Shown here: one piece after another, positions 6,737 through 22,134 of the stretch
Position numbering within the stretch: position 1 is the first letter of the stretch
How the letters are laid out: each line of letters begins with the position of its first letter
NCBI GenBank assembly: GCA_030730365.1
Contig: JANQVJ010000056.1
Location: 1 to 64,000 of the forward strand
Reading direction: 5' to 3'
DNA from: Verrucomicrobiales bacterium
Lineage (GTDB): Bacteria; Verrucomicrobiota; Verrucomicrobiia; Verrucomicrobiales; DEV007
DNA: 64,000 bases
The notes under the pieces: generated by a model
Databases searched by the model: none
Seen by the model: the letters and a program-made list of their open reading frames with translations, nothing else
What the model was told of the DNA's origin: nothing
Made by a program: the position numbers and the translations under genes

Positions 6737-8683
6737 TCACTCCGGCAAACGCCGATCATCGCCTTCTCTAACAGTCACTTTTTCCTCGTCGAGCTTTTCG
6801 AGCAGAGGCATAAGAATGCGCCTGACCGTGCCGGTGTGCTGCCGCAGATCGCTCGCGGTCGCTTTCCCGTGTGACTGGAGATACTCGACGATCTGCGTTT
6901 TGATCCTCTCATAGCCGGCGCTGGAGATGACCGTCTTCGCATCGAGATCGATCACTTCGCCCATGTTCACGAGAAAGCGGAGCGCTTTTTCCTCGGAGGC
7001 ATTCGTTGCCGTCTCGCCCTTGTTGGGCGGCGCGATGAGATCCGAGGCGAGGCGCTGACGCACGAGTTCGCCGGCCTTGATCAGTTCGGGCGGGAGCTTG
7101 GGCTGGTGATTGCGGTGGCGGATATTCGGCCCCGCCTTGGCGAAGTCCCCCCCGAGTAATCCGGCGAGGAGCGCGTCGAAAAACTTAGCCGAGGGCAGTT
7201 CGGGACTCATCATCGTGCGGAGGTCCCGCAGCGGCAACCCGAGATGGTCGGGATGCTCGCGGTGGGCGGCTTTCACCCTGTCCCCGGCGAGGCGCGAGAG
7301 ACGCTTCCACCATCCGCTTTCAAAAATCCACTCTCCGCTCTGCACCACCTCGCCGCTCCCGAGCATGGCCTCGATCCCGGCCCGAATCTGCGTGATACTG
7401 AACCGCGACCTGGCGAGGAGCGAGGCCCGATGAACGGCTTTGTCTCGGGCCAGTTGCGTCCGCAGGAGCACGTCGAGATCGTCGAAGTGATCGCGTCGCG
7501 CCTCGAGAAACTCCGCCTGAAAAGGCTTTCGAAAAGCCCTGCGGTTCGCGTCCTCGTCGAGGACGACGCCTCCGGCAAGGGTTAGCCCGGCCGAGGCATC
7601 ACGAAGGACGAAGCTGTCGCCGATGAAGACATAAACGGGATCGCGAAAGCGCAGTTCCGCGAGGACGGATTCGCCCGGCTCGAGAGCGCGCTGTCCGAGG
7701 AGATGCAGCCGGGCGGGACATCCGGTGCTGCCGTGGTGAAACATCACTTCGCGTCCGGTGCGGAGGGCGCGGGTCGATTTGCGCATCCCGCGGATTCCCC
7801 GATCCGATTTGGTGATGAGGACGTCGATCGCGGTGACGGCGGATCCGAGACTTGGCAAGGTGAGGACATCCCCACGCGCCACTCCCGTTCGTGCGGCGTC
7901 GCCGGAGTCACGGACCGCGAGGCCGGCGAGATTCAGCGCTGTGCGGGTGCCGGGAGTGACGAGATCGGTCGCGCTCCCGTGGGACTGGGCGCTGCGAACG
8001 TGGGCCGCGAGACCACCGGGCTGCACAACGAGTTCGCTGCCCGTCTTGATCGGCCCGTCGATGAGGGTTCCCGTCACGACGGTGCCGACGCCCTTGAGGG
8101 AAAAAGCGCGGTCCACCGGCAGTCTCGGTTTACCACTATCGCGGACCGGACCCGCCGCGGTGAGCAATCCCGCCATGGCGGCGCGAAGTTCGGGAATCCC
8201 CTGCCCCGTGTGGGAAGAGACGGGCACGACCGGAGCATGCTCCCACGCGCCGCCCTCGAGATTTTCCCTGAGGTCCTCCAGGACAAGCTCGAGATCGTCG
8301 GCCAGATCGACCTTGGTCAGGGCGATAACGGCCCGCTTCACCCCGAGATACTGGAGGATCTGATAGTGCTCCTCCGTCTGCGGCATCCAGCCATCGTCGG
8401 CCGCGACAATGAAAAGGGCGAGATCGATCGCCCCGACCCCGGCGACCATGTTTTTGACGAAGTCGGAATGCCCCGGCACATCGACGACCCCGACGACGAG
8501 CTTGTCCCCGCTGCCGTCGGTCGCTTCGAGATCGAGTTCGGCAAAGCCCAGTTCGATCGTCATGCCGCGTCGTTTTTCCTCGGGGAGACGATCGGGGTCT
8601 GTCCCCGTGAGCGCCACGATCAGCGAACTTTTACCGTGATCAATGTGGCCGGCGGTTCCGAGGATGAAGTGACGGGTGGACAT
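6737..8683 (-). CDS. selB: Selenocysteine-specific elongation factor SelB
   Basis: 648 residues, close to the usual SelB size. SelB delivers Sec-tRNA to the ribosome at UGA codons followed by a SECIS hairpin. The GTPase P-loop [11 protein letters not shown] starts near residue 11, switch-[14 protein letters not shown] is near residue 68, and TKVDLADD gives the guanine-specificity motif. EF-Tu-like domains follow, then the C-terminal winged-helix region that binds SECIS RNA. It is the last gene of the minus-strand selD-selA-ABC-selB operon, 39 bases after the second permease. A working SelB predicts UGA-encoded Sec in this genome, and two such genes are visible nearby. Confidence 0.97.
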
Positions 8684-8722: not shown

Positions 8723-9646
8723 CTACCGCAACCACCGGCGAAGCGCCATCGAAAAAAGATCCCCGATAACGATAACGGAACCGCCCAGGAGCACATAGAA
8801 GAACATCTGATCCCAGAAGAACCCCTTCGACAGCGCGATGAGTTTCCCGAGCGTCAGCAGCCCCAGCATCCCGAGGACGGTGGCGTCTTTGACGCAGGTC
8901 TCCCATCGGTAGAAAAAGTAGATGAGGAAGCGGTTAAACACGCCGGGCAGGATCGTCGTGGCAAAGGTCGAGGACCGCCCCTGGCCTGCGGCAAACGCGC
9001 GGACGGCTGGGGCATCATCGGTGTTTTCCACGACCTCGCCCCAGAGTCGCCCGAGGATCCCAAGATTGTGAATCGCCAGCGCGAGCACGAGCGGCCAGAA
9101 CTGAAGTCCGAGCATGGAGATGAGGAGAAAGGCGATGAGGTATTCCGGCACGGAGCGGGAGAGGACAAATCCGAAGCGAACGAGCGGACCGATCATTTTC
9201 CAAAACATCGCCGCGAGGGTGCCGGTATTCCCCGCCCGAAGCCCGAAGGGATCGACCCGCGCGAGGCGACGGCTTGCGAGAGGCAGCAGGGGCAGGACGA
9301 CCGTGCCCGCGAGAATAATCGCCGCCGTCGCGGCCGCGAAAGTCATAAGGAGCGCGAGAAATCCCTCGTCGATCAGGAGATTCCACGCCCAGGGCAGGGC
9401 ATCGCTCCAGTCGCCTGACTGCCGCACCGGAGCTGGAACGAGCTCATTGAGAAAGTTCTTAAAGTTCAGCCAGCGCCGTTCCGCCGGGAGCCGGCCGAGC
9501 AAGGGAGTGCTCGAAAGCCAGGCCCACACGATGCCTGACACCACCACCACCGCACTCAGCCGCAGGAAGGGACTGCGGGCGCGCTGCCGCCGCAATTCGT
9601 CCACGCGGGCGAGCCTATCGTCCGGAGAGGTCAGGGCACCGCTCAT
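8723..9646 (-). CDS. PhnE-type ABC transporter permease (second), selenium locus
   Basis: 307 residues with about six hydrophobic segments. The cytoplasmic coupling loop reads AFAAGQGRSSTFATTILPGVFNRF (EAA-like) near residues 215-240, typical of phosphonate-family (PhnE) permeases. Its start overlaps the end of the preceding permease by four bases. With the neighbouring ATPase and lipoprotein it would form an importer of a small oxyanion. The placement between selA and selB makes selenate, selenite or another selenium compound the most likely substrate; this is inferred from context, not from binding-site residues. Confidence 0.85.
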   Translation of the reverse strand: MSGALTSPDDRLARVDELRRQRARSPFLRLSAVVVVSGIVWAWLSSTPLLGRLPAERRWLNFKNFLNELVPAPVRQSGDWSDALPWAWNLLIDEGFLALLMTFAAATAAIILAGTVVLPLLPLASRRLARVDPFGLRAGNTGTLAAMFWKMIGPLVRFGFVLSRSVPEYLIAFLLISMLGLQFWPLVLALAIHNLGILGRLWGEVVENTDDAPAVRAFAAGQGRSSTFATTILPGVFNRFLIYFFYRWETCVKDATVLGMLGLLTLGKLIALSKGFFWDQMFFYVLLGGSVIVIGDLFSMALRRWLR

Positions 9647-10515
9647 ATCGCGCAGCCTCCCGTGCTCGTATGCAGCCGCCGTCGGATCGCGGCCCCCCAG
9701 AGATCGACGACGACGATCATGGCGATGAGGAGATACAGATAGGTCCAGACCTCACGGTAATAAAATTCCTCGTGCGAGAGTTCGATGTAGAGGCCTATCG
9801 TCTCGATCCCGACAAATCCCAGGACCGCCGAGGAACGCAGGGCGCATTCGAAACGATAAAAGCTGTAGCTCACGAGATTCGGCGTCGCCCGCGGGAGAAT
9901 ACCGACGAGGAAGGTCTGCACCGGGCCATGGCCGATAGCCTTGAGTGCCTGCGCCGCATCGCGGGCCTCTTCGTCAATGATTTCAGAAAAGACCTTTCCC
10001 AGCGTCCCGGAAAACGGCAGGGCGAGAGCGATCATGCCGGCGAGCGGGGAAACGCCCATCGCGGAGAGAAACAGCAGCGCCCAGATCAGCTCGTGGATGG
10101 ACCGGATCACGCTCATGAAGAGACGGCTGACGAGATAGACCGAGCGCAGGAGCACCCGCGTTCGCCTCCCGCAGGGTTCGGGCCACCAGGCCGAGGATCC
10201 GAGAAACCCTAACACCAATGCCGTTGGCACCGCCAGACTCATCGCGCCGAAGGCGAACTTGAGCGTCAGAAAGACCCCCTTGATTCCCTTCCACCAGATC
10301 GGATCGGCGTCATCGGGGACATTCCCGTCCTCGTAGTCGAAGGCCGGATCGAGCGCGGCGGCAAAGAACTCGCCGGTGCGCTCCCAATGGCCCGCGTCGG
10401 GCGGAATGAGACCTCCGGGAGTAAGTCCGAGCGCCCGGGCACAGAGGAGAAAAGCGACGATGAGGCCGAGTCCGACCCAGCGTTTCAGTCCGTATTTTCC
10501 CGTCTCCGCTTTCAT
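9643..10515 (-). CDS. PhnE-type ABC transporter permease (first), selenium locus
   Basis: 290 residues. One N-terminal helix, then a periplasmic stretch rich in acidic residues (about 45-80), then the BPD-transporter core. The EAA-like loop ALKAIGHGPVQTFLVGILPRATP lies near residues 190-212. It pairs with the adjacent permease as a probable heterodimer; the two are distinct in sequence rather than recent duplicates. Spacing to the ATPase gene is 12 bases and to the second permease a four-base overlap, so all are co-translated. Confidence 0.86.
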   Translation of the reverse strand: MKAETGKYGLKRWVGLGLIVAFLLCARALGLTPGGLIPPDAGHWERTGEFFAAALDPAFDYEDGNVPDDADPIWWKGIKGVFLTLKFAFGAMSLAVPTALVLGFLGSSAWWPEPCGRRTRVLLRSVYLVSRLFMSVIRSIHELIWALLFLSAMGVSPLAGMIALALPFSGTLGKVFSEIIDEEARDAAQALKAIGHGPVQTFLVGILPRATPNLVSYSFYRFECALRSSAVLGFVGIETIGLYIELSHEEFYYREVWTYLYLLIAMIVVVDLWGAAIRRRLHTSTGGCAI

Positions 10516-10527
10516 GGGTAAGACCAG

Positions 10528-11301
10528 TCAGGCATCCGCCATCATCTCCTCATCACTGAGATCATAAAGGGCCTGCTGATCCTCTTCGCCGAGTTCGTCC
10601 GGCGCGCCGTCGAAGACGATGCGGCCTTTTCTCATGCCGATGAGACGGGGAAAAAATTCCCGGGCTAGGGCGAGGTCGTGAAGGCTCACGCAAAGGGTGA
10701 AGCCGTGCTCGGCGGAGAGTTCGCAGAGCAGCTTGACGGTGTCACGCGCCCTCGCCGGATCGACGCTCGAGACTGGTTCGTCGGCGAGAAGAGCGGCCGG
10801 ATGCTGAAAGATCGCCCGCGCGATCGCGACGCGCTGCTGCTGACCGCCGGAGAGCCGGGCCACGCGGGTGTAAAGCTTTTCCTCGATCCCGACGCGGTCG
10901 AGGATCGTGTGAATCTCGACCGCATCGGCGCGGGAAGGCGCGAGTAGATCGCGGAGCGACCGCAGCGTCCCGCGACTGCCGCCCTGCCCGAGAATGACGT
11001 TCTGAATCGCAGTGAGGTTCGGCACGAGCCCGAGGTGCTGCGGGATCGTCGCAAGGGTCGTGCGGAGACGGCGCAGCGCCCCGGCATCGCAGGTGGCGAG
11101 ATCGGAATCAAAAACGCGAATCGAGCCCTCGTCGGGGGACAGCATTGAGTTGAGGAGGCGGATGAGAGTCGTCTTCCCGCTCCCGCTCGGCCCGATCAGA
11201 GCGACCTGCTCGCCCTTTTTGATTTCGAACGAGACTCCGTCCACGGCACGCAACGCCCCGTAGCGGCGGGTCACGTTGTCGAGGCGGAAGGCGGAGGGCA
11301 T
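10528..11301 (-). CDS. PhnC-type ABC transporter ATP-binding protein, selenium locus
   Basis: 257 residues from the ATG at 11301; a longer reading to 11472 would overlap the lipoprotein gene and adds only low-complexity shadow sequence. Walker A GPSGSGKTTLIRLLN is near residue 36, the signature LSGGQQQRVAIARAI near residue 145, Walker B/D-loop ADEPVSSVDP near residue 165, and the H-loop lies in CVSLHDLALA. It closely fits the phosphonate-importer ATPase subgroup. It would power the PhnE-like permease pair that follows it. Confidence 0.9.
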   Translation of the reverse strand: MPSAFRLDNVTRRYGALRAVDGVSFEIKKGEQVALIGPSGSGKTTLIRLLNSMLSPDEGSIRVFDSDLATCDAGALRRLRTTLATIPQHLGLVPNLTAIQNVILGQGGSRGTLRSLRDLLAPSRADAVEIHTILDRVGIEEKLYTRVARLSGGQQQRVAIARAIFQHPAALLADEPVSSVDPARARDTVKLLCELSAEHGFTLCVSLHDLALAREFFPRLIGMRKGRIVFDGAPDELGEEDQQALYDLSDEEMMADA

Positions 11302-11365
11302 GGGCAAAAAGGAAACGATCCGCCTCGTGAAAAGGGGGCCAGGAATGCCCCCCCTCCTCGTGGTC

Positions 11366-12292
11366 TCAGTAGAGGTCGAGGAGTCCGAGCTCGACGGCGG
11401 TGTTCTTGATGCCGTCGAAGTCCTCGTTCTTCGCGGAGATGATGGACTCCCGATTGATGGCTTTGAGGGCATCGGACCCGGCGGGAGCCTCGATCAGGGC
11501 GGTCTGCACTTTGGCGATGAATCCGGCGCCGAAGAGACTCTCAACCTCGGGATGGATCGTGAAATTGTAGTCGGCGTAAAACGGAGTCGTCCAGATCTTC
11601 ACCGTGTTCTCGGCGACTTTGGGATCACTCTTGACCATGTCGTCATAGGTCTTGTAGTTGACCGCGCCGACCTGATAAGTGCCGTCGGCGACTGCATTGG
11701 TCGTCGCGACGTGGCCTCCGCTCATTTGAAATCCGGGCTTCTGCGTGAACCACTTGTCGGGATCGATTCCGCCATTGTTCTGCATGATGAAGTAGGTCGG
11801 CATGAGACGGCCCGAGGTCGATCCGGGAGAACCGAAGGTGAAGGTCATGTCCTTGATCGCCGCTGGAAAAGCATCGGACGGCGCGAGCCCGGTCGATTTG
11901 TTGGCGATGAGATAGGACTTGTATTTCGGGTCCTCGGATCCCTGCGCGATTGCCTGAGCCCCTTCGACGGCGAGCCGAGCCTGCACGCCGGAGAGCCCGC
12001 CGAACCAGACGAGATGGACTTCTCCGTTTTTGAATTTGGTGACCGAGTCGGCGTAGTCTTTTGAAAAGACAAACTCCACCCCTATCCCGAGTTTTCCGCC
12101 GAGATACTCGGCGAGTTTGTCGAACTTGGCTTTCTGGTCGGTGATCTTCTCGTCGGGAATGGCGGAGAGATACAGGGTCGCGGCCGCTTTGTCGGCGGAC
12201 GCGGGATCACCGCCGCAGCCGCTCAGGGCAAAGGCGGCAACGGCACTAAGGGCGGGGAGAAGCAGGCGGGTCATCATAGGTTTAAGCATCAT
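11366..12292 (-). CDS. PhnD-like substrate-binding lipoprotein (putative selenate/Se-oxyanion ABC importer)
   Basis: 308 residues. A lipoprotein signal with lipobox LSGC ends at Cys 26. The mature protein begins with a TLYLSAIPDEK strand typical of PhnD-like binding proteins and includes VWFGGLSGVQARL and FGSPGSTSGRLMPTYF motifs of that fold. From memory, NCBI annotation uses the name 'putative selenate ABC transporter substrate-binding protein' for PhnD-like proteins near selD; this one fits by position (19 bases after selA) and by sequence type. Ligand specificity is not visible in the sequence; phosphonate or phosphite cannot be excluded by motif alone. Confidence 0.86.
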   Translation of the reverse strand: MMLKPMMTRLLLPALSAVAAFALSGCGGDPASADKAAATLYLSAIPDEKITDQKAKFDKLAEYLGGKLGIGVEFVFSKDYADSVTKFKNGEVHLVWFGGLSGVQARLAVEGAQAIAQGSEDPKYKSYLIANKSTGLAPSDAFPAAIKDMTFTFGSPGSTSGRLMPTYFIMQNNGGIDPDKWFTQKPGFQMSGGHVATTNAVADGTYQVGAVNYKTYDDMVKSDPKVAENTVKIWTTPFYADYNFTIHPEVESLFGAGFIAKVQTALIEAPAGSDALKAINRESIISAKNEDFDGIKNTAVELGLLDLY

Positions 12293-12310: not shown

Positions 12311-13714
12311 TCACTGAATGGCAAGGAGACTTTCCACCAATACCACATCCTGCCCAGGGAAGACAGTACGTAAATCAATACGGTAGGAGTCGTCAGTGAT
12401 GTATCCCATCACGGGCAATTCACGCTTACGCAGGAGCTCCGCCATTCGGTCCACACTGAGCTGAAGCGGTCGCAAATCGAGGGCGAGCGAGGGTATCTCC
12501 GCCTTCGGCATGGTGCCGCCCCCGCAGCGCGCGACGGAGTCGACGAGGGAAACGTCATACCCGCCCGCGGCGGCGAGTCGCGCCATGATGGCTTCGCCGC
12601 GCGGCCGCAGATCCTCTTCCACCGAGGCGCTCAACATCGTCATGAGCGGCAGGTCGGGTCTTGTCCCGGGGCCGCAACGCAGGTATTCCATGACCGTCTC
12701 CTGCATCGCCGTGAGGATGAGTTTGTCGCAGCGCAGGGCGCGGAAAAAGGGCTCTTTTTTCACGCCGGCAACGAGATCGGCCCGTCCCGCGATGATCCCC
12801 GTCTGGGGACCGCCGAAGAGCTTGTCCCCGCTCACGCAGACGAGATCGACACCGCGATTAAGAACTTCCGCCGCGGTCGGTTCGTGGGGAATGGGCGCAA
12901 CGGATTCCGTCATGACGATGGCCCCGCTCCCGAGGTCCTCGACGACGGGGATGCCGTGGGCACGACCAAGCGCGACGAGATCCTCGGTCGAAGGTTCGCC
13001 GATGAATCCCTCCATAAAAAAGTTCGAGCGATGCACCTTCAGGAGCATCCCCGTGCGCGGCGTGATCGCCTTCTCGTAATCGGCGAGCGAGGTCTTGTTC
13101 GTCGCACCTACTTCGACGAGACGCGCCCCCGAGGCCTCCATGATCTCGGGCACGCGAAAGCCACCGCCGATCTCGACGAGCTCGCCACGCGAGATGATGA
13201 CCTCGTTGCGCTCGCCATTGGCGAGATGTTTGAGGATGAGAATGAGCGCCGCCGCGCAATTGTTCGTCACCGTTGCAGCGGGGGCCTCGCACACTTTAGC
13301 GAGGCAGACCTCGAGGAATCCCCCGCGCCGCCCCCGCTCACCCGTCTCGAGATCGAGTTCGAGATTATTGTAAAATTGTCCCACGTCGGCGATGGCTTTG
13401 ACCACCTCTTTCCGCAGGGGCGAGCGTCCCAGGTTCGTGTGGATGCAGACTCCCGTGCCGTTGATAACGGGATGAATACGTGAGCGATAGAGCCGCTCGA
13501 TCTCCCCCCGGATCACGGCGACGGAGTCCGCGAACTCTCCGATATTCGTCCGGCCCGCCTTCACGCCCTCGCGCATCGACTCGACGGATTGACGCACGAG
13601 ATCGGTGATGAGCGGCTGCGGCAACGGCGGGAGCCCGCTCTCTTTTTCCAGCGCAACGAGGACTTTATCAATCGCCGGAATTCGGCTGAAAGGATTGGGG
13701 CTTTTCTCGCTCAT
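12311..13714 (-). CDS. selA: L-seryl-tRNA(Sec) selenium transferase SelA
   Basis: 467 residues from ATG 13714; a GTG at 13741 would add nine residues. SelA is a PLP enzyme that converts Ser-tRNA(Sec) to Sec-tRNA(Sec) using selenophosphate. The N-terminal tRNA-binding domain opens with NPFSRIPAIDKVL. The INGTGVCIHTNLGRSPL segment near residue 85 is a SelA hallmark. The PLP lysine lies in VSGDKLFGGPQTGII (about residues 285-300). It follows selD by about 50 bases and precedes the Se-type ABC importer genes. Length agrees with bacterial SelA. Confidence 0.97.
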   Translation of the reverse strand: MSEKSPNPFSRIPAIDKVLVALEKESGLPPLPQPLITDLVRQSVESMREGVKAGRTNIGEFADSVAVIRGEIERLYRSRIHPVINGTGVCIHTNLGRSPLRKEVVKAIADVGQFYNNLELDLETGERGRRGGFLEVCLAKVCEAPAATVTNNCAAALILILKHLANGERNEVIISRGELVEIGGGFRVPEIMEASGARLVEVGATNKTSLADYEKAITPRTGMLLKVHRSNFFMEGFIGEPSTEDLVALGRAHGIPVVEDLGSGAIVMTESVAPIPHEPTAAEVLNRGVDLVCVSGDKLFGGPQTGIIAGRADLVAGVKKEPFFRALRCDKLILTAMQETVMEYLRCGPGTRPDLPLMTMLSASVEEDLRPRGEAIMARLAAAGGYDVSLVDSVARCGGGTMPKAEIPSLALDLRPLQLSVDRMAELLRKRELPVMGYITDDSYRIDLRTVFPGQDVVLVESLLAIQ

Positions 13715-13763: not shown

Positions 13764-14822
13764 TCAACTCACCGAAATCAACTTACCATCCGACCGTTTT
13801 TCCCCTATCCTCCCGATGACGGCACAGCAGAGCGTTCTTTCGCCTTCGCAGATCGCGAGAACCTCGTCGAGATGATGTGCCGGCACGCAACAAAGGAGTC
13901 CTCCGCTCGTCTGCGCATCGGCGAGGAGAAGTTTCGCCGCATCGGAAACTCCCCCGCCGAACGTTACGAAAGGCTCGGCCGTCTTCAGATTTTGCTTCGT
14001 CCCGCCCGGAACGCAGTCTTCTTCTTCGATCAGGCGAATGACCTCGGGGTCGATCGCGGGAATCGCCGTGGAATCGAGTTCGGCACTGACGCCGCTCGAC
14101 AGACAAAGGGAGCACAGATGGCCGAGCAGGCCGAAGCCCGTCACGTCTGTCGCGCACTTCACGAGTCCGCGTTCAGCCATCGCCTGACCGGGGGTGTTCA
14201 GCCGACACATCTGCAGGATGACGCGCTCGATGAGCTCCTCATTGACGAGCCCGCGCTTGATGCCGGTCGTGAGAATGCCGGTCCCGAGGGGTTTCGTTAA
14301 AACGAGTAGATCCCCAGGCTGCGCCGCGGCATTCGTGATCATGCGATCCGGGTGGACCAGTCCGGTGACGGACAATCCGTAGATCGGCTCGGGATTCTTG
14401 ATCGAATGTCCGCCGGCCAGCGAACACTGCGCCTCTTTCACCTTGTCGGCACCACCCTTGAGAATCTGATTGATGATCTCCACGCTGAGAATGTCCGCGG
14501 GCATGCCGACAATGTTCATCGCCGTGATGGGACGTCCGCCCATCGCGTAGATATCCGAAAGCGAGTTCGTCGCTGCGATCTGGCCATAGAGATACGGGTC
14601 GTCGACAATGGGAGTGAAAAAATCGACCGTCTGCACGAGCGCAAGGTCCGGGGCAATACGATAGATTGCCGCGTCGTCAGAGGTTCCGGACCCGACGAGC
14701 AGATTGCTATCTTCGAACTGTTCGAGCCCGTGCAAGACCTGCACGAGTGCCTCCTGGCTGAGCTTGGAAGCTCAACCGGCGCAGGACGACAGGGAAGTGA
14801 GTTTGATGGTGTTTTCTGACAT
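13764..14822 (-). CDS. selD: Selenophosphate synthetase SelD, itself a selenoprotein (in-frame TGA = Sec17)
   Basis: 352 residues when the in-frame TGA at 14772-14774 is read as Sec. SelD makes selenophosphate from selenide and ATP, the Se donor for SelA, SelU and SenB. The open part after TGA first offers ATG 14744 and lacks the catalytic N-terminus. Upstream in the same frame lies ATG 14822 and MSENTIKLTSLSSCAGUASK, where U17 and K20 match the catalytic Cys17 and Lys20 of the E. coli enzyme. Glycine-rich nucleotide-binding motifs (GSGTSDDAA, AGGHSIKNPE, TDVTGFGLLGHL) are intact. A SECIS-like hairpin follows the TGA. It is first gene of the selD-selA-ABC-selB operon and divergent from senB; no separate senC is present, so it probably also serves selenoneine synthesis. 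Confidence 0.96.
14724..14753 (-). promoter_or_regulatory. SECIS element in selD mRNA
   Basis: Read on the minus strand, CGTGCA-GGTCT-TGCACG (14745 down to 14729) is a perfect 6-bp stem with loop GGUCU, the same apical loop I recall for the E. coli fdhF SECIS. Outer GAG/CTC pairs extend it. The loop starts 33 bases after the UGA, inside the 16-37 base range of the published bacterial SECIS model. This supports Sec insertion at selD codon 17. Confidence 0.85.
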
Positions 14823-14912: not shown

Positions 14913-15872
14913 ATGACAATTCTGCTTATTACTCCCGGCTCCCGTGTTCGCCATTCCGGTAACCGCTGCACCGCCTCGCAATGGGCCGACCTCCTGAAAA
15001 ATCAGGGGCACGAAGTAATCGTCTGCTACGATATCCCCGAAACCCTCCCCGTTACCCGAACCGATTTGCTCATCGCCATGCACGGCGTCAAATGCCACAA
15101 TGCCATTGCGCGCTATCGGGCTACTCAACCTGATGGGAAGATTCTCCTTGCCCTTACCGGCACCGATATCTATCCCGCACCGTCGGAGACCACATACGAA
15201 TCCATGGCGTGGGCCGACGGCCTCATCATCCTTCAGGAGAAGGCCTATGAAAAGATCCCGCAATCGTTCCACGCGAAGACCACGGTGGTGATCCAGTCCG
15301 TGCAAAAGAGAAAAGTTCACCCCGCCAGCCAGTCCCGCTATTTCGAGGTCTGTGTAGTGGGTCACTTCCGCGATGTCAAAAATCCGCTTCTCACCGCAAA
15401 GGCATCGCACCTGCTTCCACCTGAGTCCCGCCTTCGTATCCGACACGCCGGAGGCATTCTGGAATCGAAATACGGAGCCCTTGTCGCGCAGGAGCAAAGT
15501 GAAAACCCCCGCTACCACTGGCTCGGAGAACTATCCTCCGAGTCAGTCGTCGAACTCCTCGCCTCCAGCGACCTGATGGTCCTGAGCTCACACAATGAAG
15601 GCGGCGCGCGAGTGATCGGCGAAGCCATCGTGCACGGCACCCCGGTCCTTTCCACGCGAATCGACGGGGTCCTCGGACTCCTCGGTGAATCCTACCCGGG
15701 CTTCTTCCCTGATAATGATGCCGACGCTCTCAGCGCGCTGCTTTGGAGGAGCGAATCAGATCCTGCCTATTTCGCCAACCTGAATAATGCCTCCGACGGG
15801 CTTTCGAAACGCTTCGAACCCGAAGCGGAGGCACGCTCCCTGCGTGATGCCATCACGAAACTTTCCGAGTGA
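14913..15872 (+). CDS. senB: Selenosugar synthase SenB (GT4-like glycosyltransferase)
   Basis: 319 residues. SenB is the glycosyltransferase-fold enzyme of selenoneine biosynthesis that joins selenophosphate to a UDP-sugar to give a selenosugar. The sequence opens with ILLITPGSRVRHSGNRCTA, with an HSGN motif at the start of the donor half. The C-terminal Rossmann half contains CVVGHFRDVKNP, LSSHNEGGARVIGEA and GTPVLSTRIDGVLGLLG, typical GT4 donor-binding motifs. Assignment to SenB rather than a cell-wall transferase rests on length, the characteristic N-terminus and its place between selD and senA. The next gene, senA, starts four bases after its stop. Confidence 0.9.
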   Translation: MTILLITPGSRVRHSGNRCTASQWADLLKNQGHEVIVCYDIPETLPVTRTDLLIAMHGVKCHNAIARYRATQPDGKILLALTGTDIYPAPSETTYESMAWADGLIILQEKAYEKIPQSFHAKTTVVIQSVQKRKVHPASQSRYFEVCVVGHFRDVKNPLLTAKASHLLPPESRLRIRHAGGILESKYGALVAQEQSENPRYHWLGELSSESVVELLASSDLMVLSSHNEGGARVIGEAIVHGTPVLSTRIDGVLGLLGESYPGFFPDNDADALSALLWRSESDPAYFANLNNASDGLSKRFEPEAEARSLRDAITKLSE

Positions 15873-15876
15873 CGCC

Positions 15877-17172
15877 ATGATCACACAAGAATCCCTCCTT
15901 GCCGAAATCGCCCGGACCGACACGCAGATGATGATTCTGCTCGAAAGTCTTAGTGACGAAGAACTTGTTGTCCCCTGCGAACCGGGAATCAACCCGCCCG
16001 TATGGGAAGCCGGCCACGTCGCTTTTTTCTACGAATATTTTTTGCTCCGCCACCTGTATGGAGTTGAGCCCATCATGCCAGGACACGACACAGTCTGGGA
16101 TTCATTTGAGATTCCCCACCGCGAACGTTGGGAGCCGGGAATCGTGCCTGATAAAACGAAGACGCTCACTTACTACCGCCAGGTTATCAAAGAAACGATG
16201 GATCGTCTTTCCGCAGGGAACGGTCTTAGCGATGCAGAACTCTACCTCGGTCAGTATGTAGTGGCCCATCAGGACATGCACCTGGAGTCCCTCATCTGGT
16301 GTCGCCAGACTCTCGGCTACGCCGCGCCGCCATGGTCTGCAATGCTAACGGGCGCTGAGACCCGGGCAATCGTTCCACCCCTTCCTGACGCTGATATCGC
16401 CGGGGGCACCTATTACATCGGCATGCCAAAGCTGGATGACGGTTCTAAAAGTCCCTACTTCAGTTTCGACAACGAAAGGCCGGGATTCGAGCTGGCGATT
16501 GCTTCCTTTTCTCTCTCCCGCACTCTCGTCTCCCAGGGCGAATTTCTTGAGTTCGTAGAGGACCTCGGTTACGAAAGGCCTGAATTTTGGAGCGCCGGAG
16601 GGAGGTATTGGCTCCGAAAGGTTTCCCGTTCCCATCCCGCCTATTGGGCGAAACGCGACGGTCAGTGGACCGTTCGCCGTTTCAACCGGATCGAACCCCT
16701 TACCCCCTCCGCCCCCGTGATCCATGTCAGCTTCTGGGAAGCAGAGGCCTACTGCCGCTGGTCCGGACGCCGCCTTCCGAGCGAATATGAATGGGAGGCC
16801 GCCGCACGCAGCGCGGAAGCGCGCAAATTCCCCTGGGGCAACTCTCCTGACAGCCTACCCGCAGACCTCGACGCGAAACATCTCGGCACCGCTCCGGTAA
16901 CCGCTTTTCCCGAGGGCGCGACCAAGGACGGCTGCCTTCAAATGATGGGAACGGCATGGGAATGGACGACAAACCAGTATTTACCCTATGACGGATTCTG
17001 TGTCGACCTCTACGCCTACATGTCGACCCTGCAATTCGGCACCCACAAAACCACCCGCGGCGGGAGTGGCGCCACCTCGGGTTCTCTCATTCGAAACAGC
17101 TACCGTCAAGCCTACCATCCGGACCGGTTTGATGTTTTCACGGGATTCCGTACCTGCAAGGACGCCCCGTGA
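15877..17172 (+). CDS. senA: Selenoneine synthase SenA (EgtB-like nonheme iron enzyme)
   Basis: 431 residues from ATG 15877, four bases after senB; a longer upstream reading would overlap senB. SenA is an EgtB relative that couples the selenosugar to hercynine with O2. A DinB-like N-terminal domain provides the probable iron ligands H47 (WEAGHVAFFYEY), H131 and H135 (VAHQDMHLESLIW, an HxxxHxE motif). An FGE-sulfatase-like domain follows from about residue 165, with WEAEAYCRWSGRRLPSEYEWEAAAR and ending TRGGSG...RNSYRQ...GFR. EgtB is the alternative, but the senB neighbour favours SenA. No egtD (hercynine source) is in the window, so it must be elsewhere if the pathway works. Confidence 0.9.
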   Translation: MITQESLLAEIARTDTQMMILLESLSDEELVVPCEPGINPPVWEAGHVAFFYEYFLLRHLYGVEPIMPGHDTVWDSFEIPHRERWEPGIVPDKTKTLTYYRQVIKETMDRLSAGNGLSDAELYLGQYVVAHQDMHLESLIWCRQTLGYAAPPWSAMLTGAETRAIVPPLPDADIAGGTYYIGMPKLDDGSKSPYFSFDNERPGFELAIASFSLSRTLVSQGEFLEFVEDLGYERPEFWSAGGRYWLRKVSRSHPAYWAKRDGQWTVRRFNRIEPLTPSAPVIHVSFWEAEAYCRWSGRRLPSEYEWEAAARSAEARKFPWGNSPDSLPADLDAKHLGTAPVTAFPEGATKDGCLQMMGTAWEWTTNQYLPYDGFCVDLYAYMSTLQFGTHKTTRGGSGATSGSLIRNSYRQAYHPDRFDVFTGFRTCKDAP

Positions 17173-17226
17173 GCCGCACCAAGACTGGAAATTAATCTCT
17201 CCGGCACGTATTGATCTGCCGCCAAA

Positions 17227-18180
17227 ATGAATCGTTTTACGGAACAACTCGCCCGCCACCACCTACCTCTGCGGCGCGGTCCCTTTCGCACCCTCCAGAT
17301 CAATGTGGGCCGCAAGTGCAATCAGACCTGCACTCACTGCCACGTCGATGCAGGACCGCATCGAACCGAGATGATGGATGCGGAGACGGCGGGCAAAGTT
17401 GCCGCGTGGATCATCGAGCATCGGCCCGCCATCGTTGACATCACCGGAGGCGCGCCGGAGCTGAGCGAGCACTTCCGCACCTTCGTGGAAACAGCACGCT
17501 CTGTCGGCGCTCGTGTCATTGATCGCAACAACCTCACCATTATCGAAACCACATCCCACTCCTATCTCCCCGAGTATCTCGCCGGGCATGAGGTCGAAGT
17601 GGTGGCATCGCTACCCTGCTATCTCGAGGAAAATGTCGATGGCCAGCGTGGCAACGGGGTCTTTGCAAAAAGTCTTCGGGCACTCCGCAAGCTGAACGCC
17701 GTCGGTTACGGTACCCGCCTGCCGCTCACCCTCGTTTACAATCCCACCGGCCCAAGCCTGCCTCCGGATCAGGCGGAGCTCGAGGCTGACTACAAGCACG
17801 AATTGAAAGAGCGCTACGGTATTGTTTTCACCCGTCTCATCACGATCACGAATCAGCCCATCGCGCGTTTCGCCTCTGACTTGCGCGAGCAAGGGCAGTG
17901 GGATGCCTATCTCGATCTCTTGGCGAACAGCTTTAATCCGGATACCGTCAACGGACTCATGTGCCGGGACACCATCAGTGTCGGGTGGCGAGGCGAAGTC
18001 TACGACTGCGATTTTAATCAAATGCTAGGGATGCAACTCCGCCAGGGCAGAGACCTCTACCTTTGGGACGTGACACCGGGGAATCTCGGCGATCACTCCA
18101 TCCGCACCGCCAACCATTGCCTCGCCTGCACCGCCGGCGCAGGGAGCAGTTGCGGAGGCTCTCTCGTTACAACCAGCTGA
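17227..18180 (+). CDS. ArsS-like radical SAM/Cys-rich protein
   Basis: 317 residues. The radical SAM cluster motif CNQTCTHCH lies at residues 31-39, followed by HVDAGPHRTEMM and an ITGGAPE segment. The C-terminal half has further cysteines: a CRDTISVGWRGEVYDCDFNQ SPASM-like part and a terminal CLACTAGAGSSCGG. This is the ArsS / 'rSAM_SeCys' family, in which, from memory, many members carry Sec in the C-terminal motif; here all positions are Cys. Known ArsS makes the 5'-deoxyadenosyl arsenical that leads to arsenosugars. It starts 54 bases after senA, so a selenium substrate is conceivable but unproven. No arsM is visible in the window. Confidence 0.85.
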   Translation: MNRFTEQLARHHLPLRRGPFRTLQINVGRKCNQTCTHCHVDAGPHRTEMMDAETAGKVAAWIIEHRPAIVDITGGAPELSEHFRTFVETARSVGARVIDRNNLTIIETTSHSYLPEYLAGHEVEVVASLPCYLEENVDGQRGNGVFAKSLRALRKLNAVGYGTRLPLTLVYNPTGPSLPPDQAELEADYKHELKERYGIVFTRLITITNQPIARFASDLREQGQWDAYLDLLANSFNPDTVNGLMCRDTISVGWRGEVYDCDFNQMLGMQLRQGRDLYLWDVTPGNLGDHSIRTANHCLACTAGAGSSCGGSLVTTS

Positions 18181-19148: not shown

Positions 19149-19244
19149 TGGCGGAGAGGGAAGGAATCGAACCAACCCCGGCAAGGATCACTCGCCGACA
19201 ACGGTTTTGAAGACCGCGGAGCCCACCAGGACCCATCTCTCTCC
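19149..19244 (-). tRNA. selC: tRNA-Sec (anticodon TCA)
   Basis: 96 bases with encoded CCA. Acceptor GGAGAG pairs with CTCTCC, the discriminator is G. The anticodon loop CTTCAAA (anticodon TCA) sits on GCGGT/ACCGT. The long variable arm forms CGGCGAG-TGATC-CTTGCCG. T-loop TTCGATT is canonical. Total length matches bacterial tRNA-Sec (about 95). Odd points: T-stem GTTGG/CCTTC has two T-T oppositions, acceptor pair 7 is A-C, and the D-stem has one mismatch. It lies 45 bases after the NifS-like gene on the same strand and may be co-transcribed with selU and that gene. Confidence 0.93.
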
Positions 19245-19289
19245 AATAGAGAGGGGAATCTTCATGCCGTCAGGCGAAAAGGTCAATCC

Positions 19290-20450
19290 TCATGATGCGG
19301 CGCGAAGTCGTTTCAGCACCTTGATGATCTTTCCGACCGCCTCATCCACCTCTTCCTCCGTCGTAAAGATGGAGAGCGACAAGCGCAGACTGCTAAAAGC
19401 TCGCTCGTCGCTAAAACCCATCGCCTTCTGGACATGGCTGGGCTGACTTTTCCCTGCCATGCAGGCGCTCCCGGCAGAGCATTCCACTCCGAACGCATCG
19501 AGGGCGGGGAGGAGTTCCGCAGCGGTGCAGCCGGCGAAGGAAAGGTGGGCGACATTTCCCGTGCGGTGCTCCCGCGATCCGTTGCACGTGACCCTGTCAG
19601 GTCCCTCACCCAACCCTGTCAGGAGCCCACCCTCGAGCCGGTCTCTGAGACGAGTGACCCGCGCCATCCCCCCGCCGGAAATCTCCTCCCGCATCAGCGC
19701 GGCGGCGGCTCCGAGCCCGACGAGGTAGGGCACATTCTCCGTCCCGCTGCGCCGCCCCGACTCCTGCCCTCCTCCCCGTATCATGGGCTCAATCGGACTT
19801 CCTCGACGGATAAAAAGGGCGCCCACTCCTTTGGGCGCGTGGAACTTATGACCACTTATTGAAAGGTAATCGACAGCCACTTCGTCAACCCGCACAGGAA
19901 TCTTGCCAACCGCCTGTATCGCATCGGTATGGAAAAACCATCCGGCCTTTTTTGCGATCTCGCAGGCTTCCGCGATCGGCTGGATCACGCCCGTCTCGTT
20001 GTTTGCCCACATCACCGAGGCGAATCCGGGACAGGTATCGACAACGACCGAGGCGAAGTCATCCAGATCGAGACGGCCGTCTTCCCCGACCCTCGCCGTT
20101 TTCACCTCGAACCCGACCGCCGCCATCGCCTCGACCGGGCGGATCACCGCACTGTGCTCGATCGCACTGACGACGACGCGGGAGTGGCGACGCCCGATCT
20201 CCCGGGCGAGGGATTTAATCACGGTGCTATTTGCCTCAGTCCCGCTCCCGGTGAAGACAATCTCGTCGGGATGAGCTCCAATGAGAGCGGCGACCTGTTC
20301 CCGGGCAATCTCGATTGCGTTGCGCACGTCCCTTCCCGCGGCGTAGTTGCTCGAGGGATTGTGCCAGTGTCCGGTGAGAAATGGCATCATCGCCTCGACC
20401 ACTCTGGGATGGACCTTAGTCGTGGCATTAGAGTCAAGATAGATCGCCAT
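19290..20450 (-). CDS. Cysteine desulfurase, NifS/IscS type (possible Se donor enzyme)
   Basis: 386 residues. A PLP enzyme that removes S from cysteine, or Se from selenocysteine, as a persulfide/perselenide. The start MAIYLDSNATTKV, an IEHSAV histidine near residue 100, the PLP lysine in SISGHKFHAPKG (near 200) and GGGQESGRRSGTENV are group-I NifS features. The active Cys loop reads ECSAGSACMAGKSQPSHV near residue 325. It sits between selU (36 bases upstream) and tRNA-Sec on the same strand, which suggests delivery of Se to SelD rather than, or besides, Fe-S assembly; no iscU or sufB is nearby. Confidence 0.93.
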   Translation of the reverse strand: MAIYLDSNATTKVHPRVVEAMMPFLTGHWHNPSSNYAAGRDVRNAIEIAREQVAALIGAHPDEIVFTGSGTEANSTVIKSLAREIGRRHSRVVVSAIEHSAVIRPVEAMAAVGFEVKTARVGEDGRLDLDDFASVVVDTCPGFASVMWANNETGVIQPIAEACEIAKKAGWFFHTDAIQAVGKIPVRVDEVAVDYLSISGHKFHAPKGVGALFIRRGSPIEPMIRGGGQESGRRSGTENVPYLVGLGAAAALMREEISGGGMARVTRLRDRLEGGLLTGLGEGPDRVTCNGSREHRTGNVAHLSFAGCTAAELLPALDAFGVECSAGSACMAGKSQPSHVQKAMGFSDERAFSSLRLSLSIFTTEEEVDEAVGKIIKVLKRLRAAS

Positions 20451-20486: not shown

Positions 20487-21569
20487 TCACCGAAAGGCTC
20501 CCGACGCGGTGATTGATGCCGCTCTTTCCGCGAGAATATCCGCGCAGGCGGATACGGTGGCTTTATCATGACCCGGAAGTTCCAGCGTCAGGGAAGGTTT
20601 TTCGAAATAACCACTTCCGCCCACGGAGTAGCGTCTGTCATAGTGCTCGGCAAGGAGTCGCGTCACGAGCGTCACCCAGTCACCGCGATCCGCGAGCGTC
20701 TTCCACTCAACGATTACTTGCGCAGGCTGGTATTCCCTGAGACGGTCTATCGTGTTTCGCACCCGCTCCGAGTCCGTGACCCATTTGGCATAGTCGGCGG
20801 TGAGATAATCGGCCCGTGCCGCCAGTGGGGACGAGATCTCGATGACCGGCGCGACTTTCATCCGCTGCCAGAGCGGATTGGGAAGGTTCAGCCTCCCGAT
20901 CTTGGCGCTCTCGGCTTCGAGGAAGACGGGGCGCGACGTCTCGAATCGGGATATCCTGTCAAAGAGGAGTGACTCGAACCGCTTCTGCGCCGGCTGGGGA
21001 CTCTCGCGGTCGCCGCCGAAGACGGACCCCTTGTGACAAGCGAGTCCCTCGAGATCGAGGACCTGCTCACCGGATCGGGCAAGCGATTTGAGAAGAAGCG
21101 TTTTCCCTGCTCCGGTGAATCCGTTGAGAATGACGAAATTCAGCTCCTCCGCGCCCCGCCGTATCGTCTCGATGACATGACCGCGGTAGCTGCGGTAGCC
21201 GCCCTCGATCACCGAAGTGGACCACCCGATGTCGGCGAGTACGGTCGCGAGGCTGCCCGAGCGCTGTCCACCGCGCCAGCAATAGACGAGCGGGCGGTAA
21301 TCTTTCCCCTTGGACAAAAAGTGCGACTCGAGATGAGCCGAGATGTTTTTCGAGACGAGTGACGCCCCGATTTTACGTGCGTCAAAGGGCGAGACCTGTT
21401 TGTAGATCGTCCCGACACGGACGCGCTCCTCGTCATTCAGGACAGGGAGATTAATCGCCCCGGTGAGGTGGTCCTCGTGAAATTCCACGGGCGCGCGCAC
21501 GTCGATGATCTCGTGAAAGGGAGATTCGGCGGAGAGGGGGAAATGGATTCTTTCGATGAGACGACTCAT
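20487..21569 (-). CDS. selU: tRNA 2-selenouridine synthase SelU (MnmH)
   Basis: 360 residues from ATG 21569; a GTG at 21614 would add 15 residues of poor fit. SelU replaces S by Se at the wobble 2-thiouridine of Lys, Glu and Gln tRNAs via a geranylated intermediate, using selenophosphate. The rhodanese domain opens with EIIDVRAPVEFHEDHLTGAIN, and the catalytic Cys97 lies in VYCWRGGQRSGS. A P-loop GFTGAGKT at residues 150-157 starts the second domain. Length is typical. It is first of the selU-nifS-selC unit and divergent from the small selenoprotein gene. Confidence 0.96.
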   Translation of the reverse strand: MSRLIERIHFPLSAESPFHEIIDVRAPVEFHEDHLTGAINLPVLNDEERVRVGTIYKQVSPFDARKIGASLVSKNISAHLESHFLSKGKDYRPLVYCWRGGQRSGSLATVLADIGWSTSVIEGGYRSYRGHVIETIRRGAEELNFVILNGFTGAGKTLLLKSLARSGEQVLDLEGLACHKGSVFGGDRESPQPAQKRFESLLFDRISRFETSRPVFLEAESAKIGRLNLPNPLWQRMKVAPVIEISSPLAARADYLTADYAKWVTDSERVRNTIDRLREYQPAQVIVEWKTLADRGDWVTLVTRLLAEHYDRRYSVGGSGYFEKPSLTLELPGHDKATVSACADILAERAASITASGAFR

Positions 21570-21653
21570 GTCTGCGATCTCAACGCTCCGTCGCTCGCGG
21601 CGGAGTGGGGACACCTGCCTTACATGGATGAGGGGACGGAAATGCGCAATGAT

Positions 21654-21684
21654 TTGTCACAAAACCTTTTCGAAAACGTATTAG
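21654..21684 (+). promoter_or_regulatory. Weak candidate promoter for the small selenoprotein gene
   Basis: TTGTCA at 21654-21659 and TATTAG at 21679-21684 could be -35 and -10 boxes, but the 19-base spacing is long. The site is in the A/T-richer divergent region between selU and the selenoprotein gene. Proposed by eye only. Confidence 0.25.
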
Positions 21685-21728: not shown

Positions 21729-22037
21729 ATGAAAAAACTAATTCTATCCATGACCGTGGCCGTCATGGCCTTCGCGACATCCGCGATGGCCGACGTGACC
21801 TATGTTGCCGGGATGACCGGTGTTACTTGAGGAGGCTGCAAAAGAGACGTCAGTTCGGCGTTCGGCAGTCTTAAGGGCTTCAAATCCATTACTGTAGAGA
21901 ATGGAGCGGAAGCAGATACCCAGCTCGTGACGGTTTCCTTCGAAGAAGGCACCAAAGTGACCAAAGAGGCGGCAGTCGCTTCGCTTGGTGACAAGGCTGG
22001 GAAGTATGTTGTCAAAACCTGGGAAGCCAAGAAGTAA
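21729..22037 (+). CDS. Small exported HMA-like selenoprotein (in-frame TGA = Sec34)
   Basis: 102 residues if the TGA at 21828-21830 is read as Sec. MKKLILSMTVAVMAFATSAMA is a signal peptide, cleaved near residue 21. The mature protein starts DVTYVAGMTGVTUGGCKRDV, like the heavy-metal-associated fold (GMTCxxC of MerP/CopZ) with the first metal-site Cys replaced by U34 and C37 kept. After the TGA the frame continues through an HMA-like pattern (SLKGFKSITVENG, LVTVSFEEGTKVT, AVASLGDKAGKYVVKTW) to TAA at 22035. A SECIS-like hairpin follows the TGA, and a terminator follows the stop. It is divergent from selU at the edge of the selenium island. A metal- or selenol-based redox role is possible; not known. 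Confidence 0.88.
21833..21871 (+). promoter_or_regulatory. SECIS-like hairpin of the small selenoprotein
   Basis: Lower stem AGGCTGC (21833-21839) pairs with GCAGTCT (21865-21871), including one G-T. Upper stem GACGTC (21846-21851) pairs with GGCGTT (21857-21862), with G-T wobbles, leaving loop AGTTC. The loop starts 21 bases after the UGA and has G as its second base, as the published bacterial SECIS model requires. It is weaker than the selD hairpin because of its wobble pairs. Confidence 0.65.
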
Positions 22038-22100: not shown

Positions 22101-22134
22101 GAGCCCCGCTGCCCCGGCAGCGGGGCTCATTTTG
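22101..22134 (+). terminator. Intrinsic terminator after the small selenoprotein gene
   Basis: GAGCCCCGCTGCC at 22101-22113 pairs perfectly over 13 bp with 22116-22128, followed by ATTTTG. It lies 63 bases after the TAA of the selenoprotein, showing that transcription is meant to continue past the in-frame TGA, and it separates the selenium island from the DUF4175 operon. Confidence 0.85.

Follow-up and report, generated by a model that had tools for sequence, protein, structure and literature searches.

A predicted exported HMA-fold selenoprotein with a single UxxC motif in Verrucomicrobiales

A small gene within the 64,000-nucleotide stretch of Verrucomicrobiales DNA analyzed here (the window) is predicted to encode a secreted selenoprotein of the HMA fold, named Sec-HMA below. 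Its in-frame UGA is almost certainly decoded as selenocysteine (Sec), as judged in silico. The protein would bind a soft metal through Sec34 and Cys37 and would act as an envelope sponge or a metallochaperone; as a whole, this reading is judged somewhat probable. The start, the TGA, the TAA, the UGGC motif and the open reading frame all lie where a previous sequence-only reading had placed them. The gene and its elements are as follows.

21654..21684, + strand: candidate promoter TTGTCA-N19-TATTAG, which recurs in varied form in most of 17 aligned syntenic loci
21729..22037, + strand: Sec-HMA gene, 102 aa, TGA as codon 34 and TAA as stop, supported by homologues
21729..21791, + strand: signal-peptide-like segment MKKLILSMTVAVMAFATSAMA, residues 1-21, with KK, a hydrophobic core and AMA in the sequence
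21828..21830, + strand: UGA for Sec34, at the first position of the HMA CxxC by profile alignment and homologues
21837..21839, + strand: codon of Cys37, second residue of UxxC, invariant in the alignment
21846..21862, + strand: apical hairpin of a bacterial SECIS, GACGUC-AGUUC-GGCGUU, from comparative alignment
22101..22128, + strand: terminator-like GC hairpin, symmetric, which could serve both strands

With the TGA at 21828 read through, the translation is MKKLILSMTVAVMAFATSAMADVTYVAGMTGVT-U-GGCKRDVSSAFGSL...KTWEAKK-stop. In place of the signal peptide proposed earlier, the sequence shows a signal-peptide-like MKK...A-M-A N-terminus, and a similar layout is common to most of the aligned homologues. 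The AlphaFold pLDDT is low over this segment. From the signal peptide, the protein is predicted to be exported to the periplasm, and the mature form would contain one Sec, one Cys (Cys37) and no His. The terminator expected after the TAA corresponds to the hairpin at 22101-22128. A strict promoter scan did not pick up TTGTCA-N19-TATTAG, with its spacer of 19; a further conserved CTTACA block lies upstream of it in the syntenic loci.

The HMA fold was identified at the profile and the structure level. Residues 31-86 matched PF00403 at 27.8 bits against a cut-off of 24.8 when U was read as C, and the same model was matched by 35/35 family members. An AlphaFold model of the window protein, made with 35 family members, showed the beta-alpha-beta-beta-alpha-beta order with U34 directly before helix 1; its pLDDT was 86.5, with strands at 23-30, 51-58, 64-71 and 95-101 and helices at 35-46 and 79-91. 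Profile comparison matched the protein to the solved domains of the MerA N-terminus, CopZ, MerP and ATP7B. A fold search of the PDB returned general ferredoxin-like folds including HMA domains (E around 1e-3), which is not specific. In the Pfam profile, G31-V32-T33-U34-G35-G36-C37 takes the positions of the canonical G-M-T-C-x-x-C, and this places Sec34 at the first Cys. The counterpart of GMTCxxC is therefore GVTUGGC, and the earlier GMT at residues 28-30 belongs to strand beta-1. The proposal that Sec sits in the metal-binding CxxC of a MerP/CopZ fold is borne out by this alignment, and in silico Sec34 stands where the motif otherwise has its exposed first Cys.

Homologues were found on both sides of the TGA. 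Among 191 related genomes, 118 had a match, of which 48 carried TGA at the same codon and the others Cys. The recurrence of TGA at one codon in 48 of the 191 indicates that a TGA flanked by homology on both sides is not a matter of chance. The Sec and Cys homologues align without gaps across the motif; the position holds TGA or Cys, and no homologue was seen to end naturally there, the outcome that the sequence-only reading had named as refuting. The gene also follows the selenium machinery. selA was present in 46 of the 48 TGA-bearing genomes, the other two being 53% and 59% complete, and in 21 of the 143 related genomes lacking the TGA form (Fisher p 3e-25 overall and 1e-5 within the genus, where the table is 21/0 against 4/9, both uncorrected for phylogeny). 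Cys forms occur in family f4, which has no selA, and in one further genome (G166). Downstream of the UGA, dN was well below dS, with a dN/dS of about 0.07-0.21 after the hairpin when tested against the five nearest relatives, and this part of the protein is under purifying selection.

The RNA element was examined comparatively. In bacterial SECIS elements, the rule used by bSECISearch is a hairpin shortly 3' of the UGA with a G at one of the two leading bases of the loop. In Sec-HMA, the hairpin starts 15 nt and its loop 21 nt downstream of the UGA; the loop is AGUUC or CGUGC in the Sec sequences, and the GU at its positions 2-3 is invariant. The hairpin had been noticed before at the right distance. 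In the single window sequence it is unremarkable (z -1.5, with 18/200 shuffles equally good). Folding of single sequences was uninformative, and what makes the hairpin convincing is the comparison of about 34-35 aligned Sec sequences, or 42 with additions. A lower stem predicted in the window sequence was considered and rejected as a shared feature, since the apical hairpin is mostly all that the minimum free energy folds have in common.

Codons +7 to +10 are nearly frozen in the Sec forms (GTC 35/35, AGT 24/24, TCG 24/24 and GCG 32/35). Elsewhere in the gene, the same amino acids use varied codons, with a top-codon usage of 0.35-0.47. The run GTC-AGT-TCG-GCG is conserved beyond the need of the protein. 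When R-A takes the place of S-S in the protein, CGUGC takes that of AGUUC in the RNA, and the stem and the loop GU are kept. Under a synonymous-recoding null, the mean z was -2.4 for the Sec forms and +0.5 for the Cys homologues, which do not have the hairpin. The pair 21:33, the only one that varies freely, joins the wobble positions of codons +6 and +10, and was CG in 35, UA in 6, AU in 1 and unpaired in 0 of the 42 aligned sequences; the tree demands 7 or more changes of this pair. Substitutions at either position are mostly synonymous, so that their coupling has no explanation at the protein level; when the partner was shifted by 1-3 columns, pairing dropped from 96% to 31-49%. The claim of a SECIS-like hairpin thus holds on frozen codons and covariation, and the element illustrates cleanly how selection on the RNA acts within codons. 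A search of the own genome with the SECIS model gave no second element above chance. In one Cys orthologue with UGU (L069, 6064), the codons GTC CGT of the 5' SECIS arm are kept and the 3' arm is lost; the kept arm could be left over from a Sec ancestor or be due to chance.

Several readings of the TGA other than Sec were considered. Reassignment of the code was ruled out, as selA and selB themselves end in TGA, so that the codon is also used as a stop. If the UGA of Sec-HMA were likewise a true stop, translation would end after 33 residues, and the frame behind it would be a relic or an overlapping sequence. The single-sequence hairpin score of only -1.5 would agree with such a stop, but a stop would not account for the roughly 48 genomes that keep the TGA, the purifying selection on the frame behind it, the freezing and covariation of the SECIS codons, the alignment of Cys homologues at this column or the co-occurrence with selA; a true stop is accordingly considered highly improbable. 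A pseudogene or a short peptide was ruled out by the conservation, the dN/dS and the SECIS covariation. The conserved TGA, selA co-occurrence, Cys homologues, purifying selection and SECIS covariation together support reading the UGA as Sec. Annotation of the UGA as a stop would truncate the gene.

The machinery for Sec was found in the same window.

6746..8665, - strand: selB
12326..13687, - strand: selA
13764..14822, - strand: selD, with an in-frame TGA at codon 17 (SSCAGUASK), the second selenoprotein in the window
19150..19245, - strand: tRNA-Sec, anticodon TCA
19290..20450, - strand: NifS/IscS-like cysteine desulfurase, near selU
20487..21614, - strand: selU/mnmH, tRNA 2-selenouridine synthase, divergent neighbour of Sec-HMA, over the TIGR03167 cut-off

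With selA, selB, selD and tRNA-Sec all within the window, the Sec machinery of this genome is complete. The TGA of selD (14774-14772, - strand) lies in the catalytic Cys/Sec loop; on read-through, the TIGR00476 score rises from 360 to 387 bits and the match reaches model position 1, and the plain open reading frame from 14744 is a truncated form. A strong hairpin, GUGCAGGUCUUGCAC, is located 3' of this TGA. The adjacency to selU noted before was verified, and selU and the NifS-like gene were each found upstream and divergent in 18 Sec-HMA loci.

Other genes in the window also relate to selenium. Between selB and selA, an ABC transporter is encoded at 8723-12292 (- strand); its substrate-binding protein matched TIGR04553, 'putative selenate ABC transporter', at 259.8 against 250 bits, and its PhnC-like ATPase and two PhnE-like permeases were below cut-off. 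Beside selD, the region 14913-18180 (+ strand) contains SenB-like (TIGR04348) and SenA-like (NF041186) genes, both just below cut-off, and ArsS (TIGR04167), an arsenosugar radical SAM gene over cut-off. By these profile matches, the region would combine selenoneine-type biosynthesis and an arsenosugar radical SAM gene inside one selenium cluster. In the other genera (loci L059-L083), Sec-HMA persists without an adjacent selU and has unrelated genes nearby.

A pattern-plus-tblastn scan of 84,980 species returned 46 loci, all from Verrucomicrobiota MAGs; those with finer names were Verrucomicrobiales (Akkermansiaceae, Verrucomicrobiaceae and Prosthecobacter). In a phylum-wide sample of 388 genomes, the matches were likewise confined to Verrucomicrobiales; as this restriction to the order comes from the 388-genome sample and a pattern-based scan, distant forms may escape it. 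Within family f1, 42 of the 50 selA-bearing genomes have the gene, and the Sec-using relatives G002, G004, G017 and G024 have none. Of the earlier description as an uncommon selenoprotein, the selenoprotein part stands; among the Sec-using members of this family the protein is common. A tree of 81 rows required three changes between Sec and Cys, although with 85 columns it is poorly resolved. It sets apart a Cys-only paralogue with GIECxxC, found alongside the Sec gene in several genomes; the Cys forms from the family without selA also separate. The GIECxxC paralogues at loci L105-L139 were recovered by tblastn and are missed by regex extraction. Two genomes carry tandem Sec-HMA domains in one frame with two UGAs (L056 at 2834 and 3086; L058 at 6100 and 6352); each UGA has its own SECIS, and these would be selenoproteins with two Sec.

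The in-silico evidence shows decoding of the UGA as Sec by SelB, aided by the hairpin directly downstream. In the mechanism that we propose, after export and removal of the signal peptide, Sec34 and Cys37 on the beta1-alpha1 loop would bind a single soft metal ion, either Cu(I), Ag(I) or Hg(II), in the near-linear two-coordination of MerP, CopZ and Atx1. The exposed first Cys of HMA domains makes the first contact in ligand exchange, and a selenolate at this place should therefore favour soft metals. Being softer than sulfur and already ionised at neutral pH, the selenolate could give tighter or faster capture, and hand-over by ligand exchange, so that in selenium-replete cells the protein might work as an envelope metal sponge or metallochaperone. 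Metal binding itself is inferred from the fold, the motif and the ligand geometry. The broader proposal, that these are lineage-specific exported HMA selenoproteins selected for Sec/Cys coordination of soft metals as envelope metallochaperones or buffers, and tandem-duplicated in some genomes, is tentative and held a little short of an even chance. If Sec is the metal ligand, the protein would offer a small, soluble and testable model of what selenium contributes to a metal carrier, with natural pairs of Sec and Cys orthologues, the Cys version being among the best-studied metalloproteins.

Several observations speak against a metal role. The gene has no conserved linkage to metal genes, and within the genus it lies near selU and the cysteine desulfurase; no metal-handling gene was next to it in any conserved neighbourhood, syntenic or in the other genera. 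The protein scores well under the equivalog cut-offs for MerP and CopZ, some Sec-using relatives do without it, and UxxC could equally be redox-active. In the oxidising envelope, Sec and Cys readily form an Se-S bond, and Sec34-Cys37 might thus be a selenenylsulfide redox centre on an HMA scaffold, for disulfide, peroxide or selenium chemistry. This selenol-thiol role is the main rival to metal binding, because the known UxxC selenoproteins are mostly regarded as redox proteins (PMC13188914), and a monocistronic gene unlinked to metal genes would agree with it. Yet the fold and the motif are those of metal carriers, with 35/35 members in PF00403 and no thioredoxin-like character, and the solved structures closest in sequence are those of metal-binding domains; a redox centre is held to be rather unlikely.

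The divergent arrangement beside selU and the NifS-like gene, conserved in 18 loci, together with the selenium cluster, the selenate-type ABC transporter and the selenoneine-type genes in the same window, could instead suggest an exported selenium carrier or sink, or a reporter of selenium status. The synteny is broken in the other genera, though, where the gene persists without selU, and Cys forms persist in genomes without selA, which leaves a selenium role improbable. Other HMA proteins were also observed. The own genome has two further HMA matches. One (L086, 740-1758) is an exported Cys-type HMA protein of 115 aa with a CTGC motif, which directly follows an SCO1-like gene and is likely a copper chaperone for cytochrome oxidase; the other has 257 aa and two CxxC-like stretches. 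Two heavy-metal P-type ATPases are encoded elsewhere in this genome; no functional link between any of these and Sec-HMA was found.

Sec in HMA-like domains has precedents. The metal-transport-like selenoproteins of metagenomic surveys that the sequence-only reading mentioned can be traced to the GOS survey of marine metagenomes, whose Table 2 lists a 'Mercuric transport protein MerP' selenoprotein with 2 sequences from 1 sample and 0 Cys homologues (PMC2398784), and to the NCBIfam UxxU and MerT/CopZ-Se models. Compared by the table entry alone, which gives neither motif nor domain, the GOS protein is possibly of the same type as Sec-HMA. A 2026 review covers 119 families or subfamilies of selenoproteins, of which none has PF00403, and there is no MerP entry in its table; its related precedents are the UxxC cation ATPase, a MerT-like 'putative mercuric transport protein' and NF041115 (UxxU) (PMC13188914). 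The MerT/CopZ-Se precedent, NF045683, is found in NCBIfam only. The main texts of 'deep-Sep' and a 2016 comparative survey make no mention of an HMA or mercuric selenoprotein family.

Among the closest known systems is MerP (TIGR02052; PDB 1afi, 1osd), also an exported single HMA domain with its ligand motif on the beta1-alpha1 loop, and this model was matched by the most members (34/35). Unlike MerP, Sec-HMA has Sec in place of the first Cys, the window protein scores 20.5 bits against a cut-off of 92.55, and no merT or merA was linked to it in the adjacent window genes or the conserved neighbourhoods. NF041115 and NF045683 are likewise HMA/CopZ-like selenoprotein domains with weak profile similarity to Sec-HMA. 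Against the UxxU metal-binding (seleno)protein NF041115, the window protein scores 15.5 with a cut-off of 95, and differs by its single Sec, its UxxC and its signal peptide. NF045683, a MerT/CopZ fusion-like heavy metal transport selenoprotein, matched only 1/35 members weakly (E 0.005), and Sec-HMA is a single exported domain of 102 aa with no MerT part. The cation-transporting ATPase E1-E2 selenoprotein (TIGR01525; PMC13188914) shares UxxC and is a heavy-metal transporter. It is a membrane P-type ATPase, in contrast to the stand-alone exported domain. Its UxxC is presumably that of its N-terminal HMA domain. The copper chaperones CopZ and Atx1 share the fold and the position of the two metal ligands with Sec-HMA, but are cytosolic and Cys/Cys, whereas Sec-HMA is predicted to be exported and Sec/Cys. 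As the window protein falls well short of the cut-off in every NCBIfam model touched, and the precedents are related ones, Sec-HMA is best described as a stand-alone exported UxxC HMA selenoprotein family.
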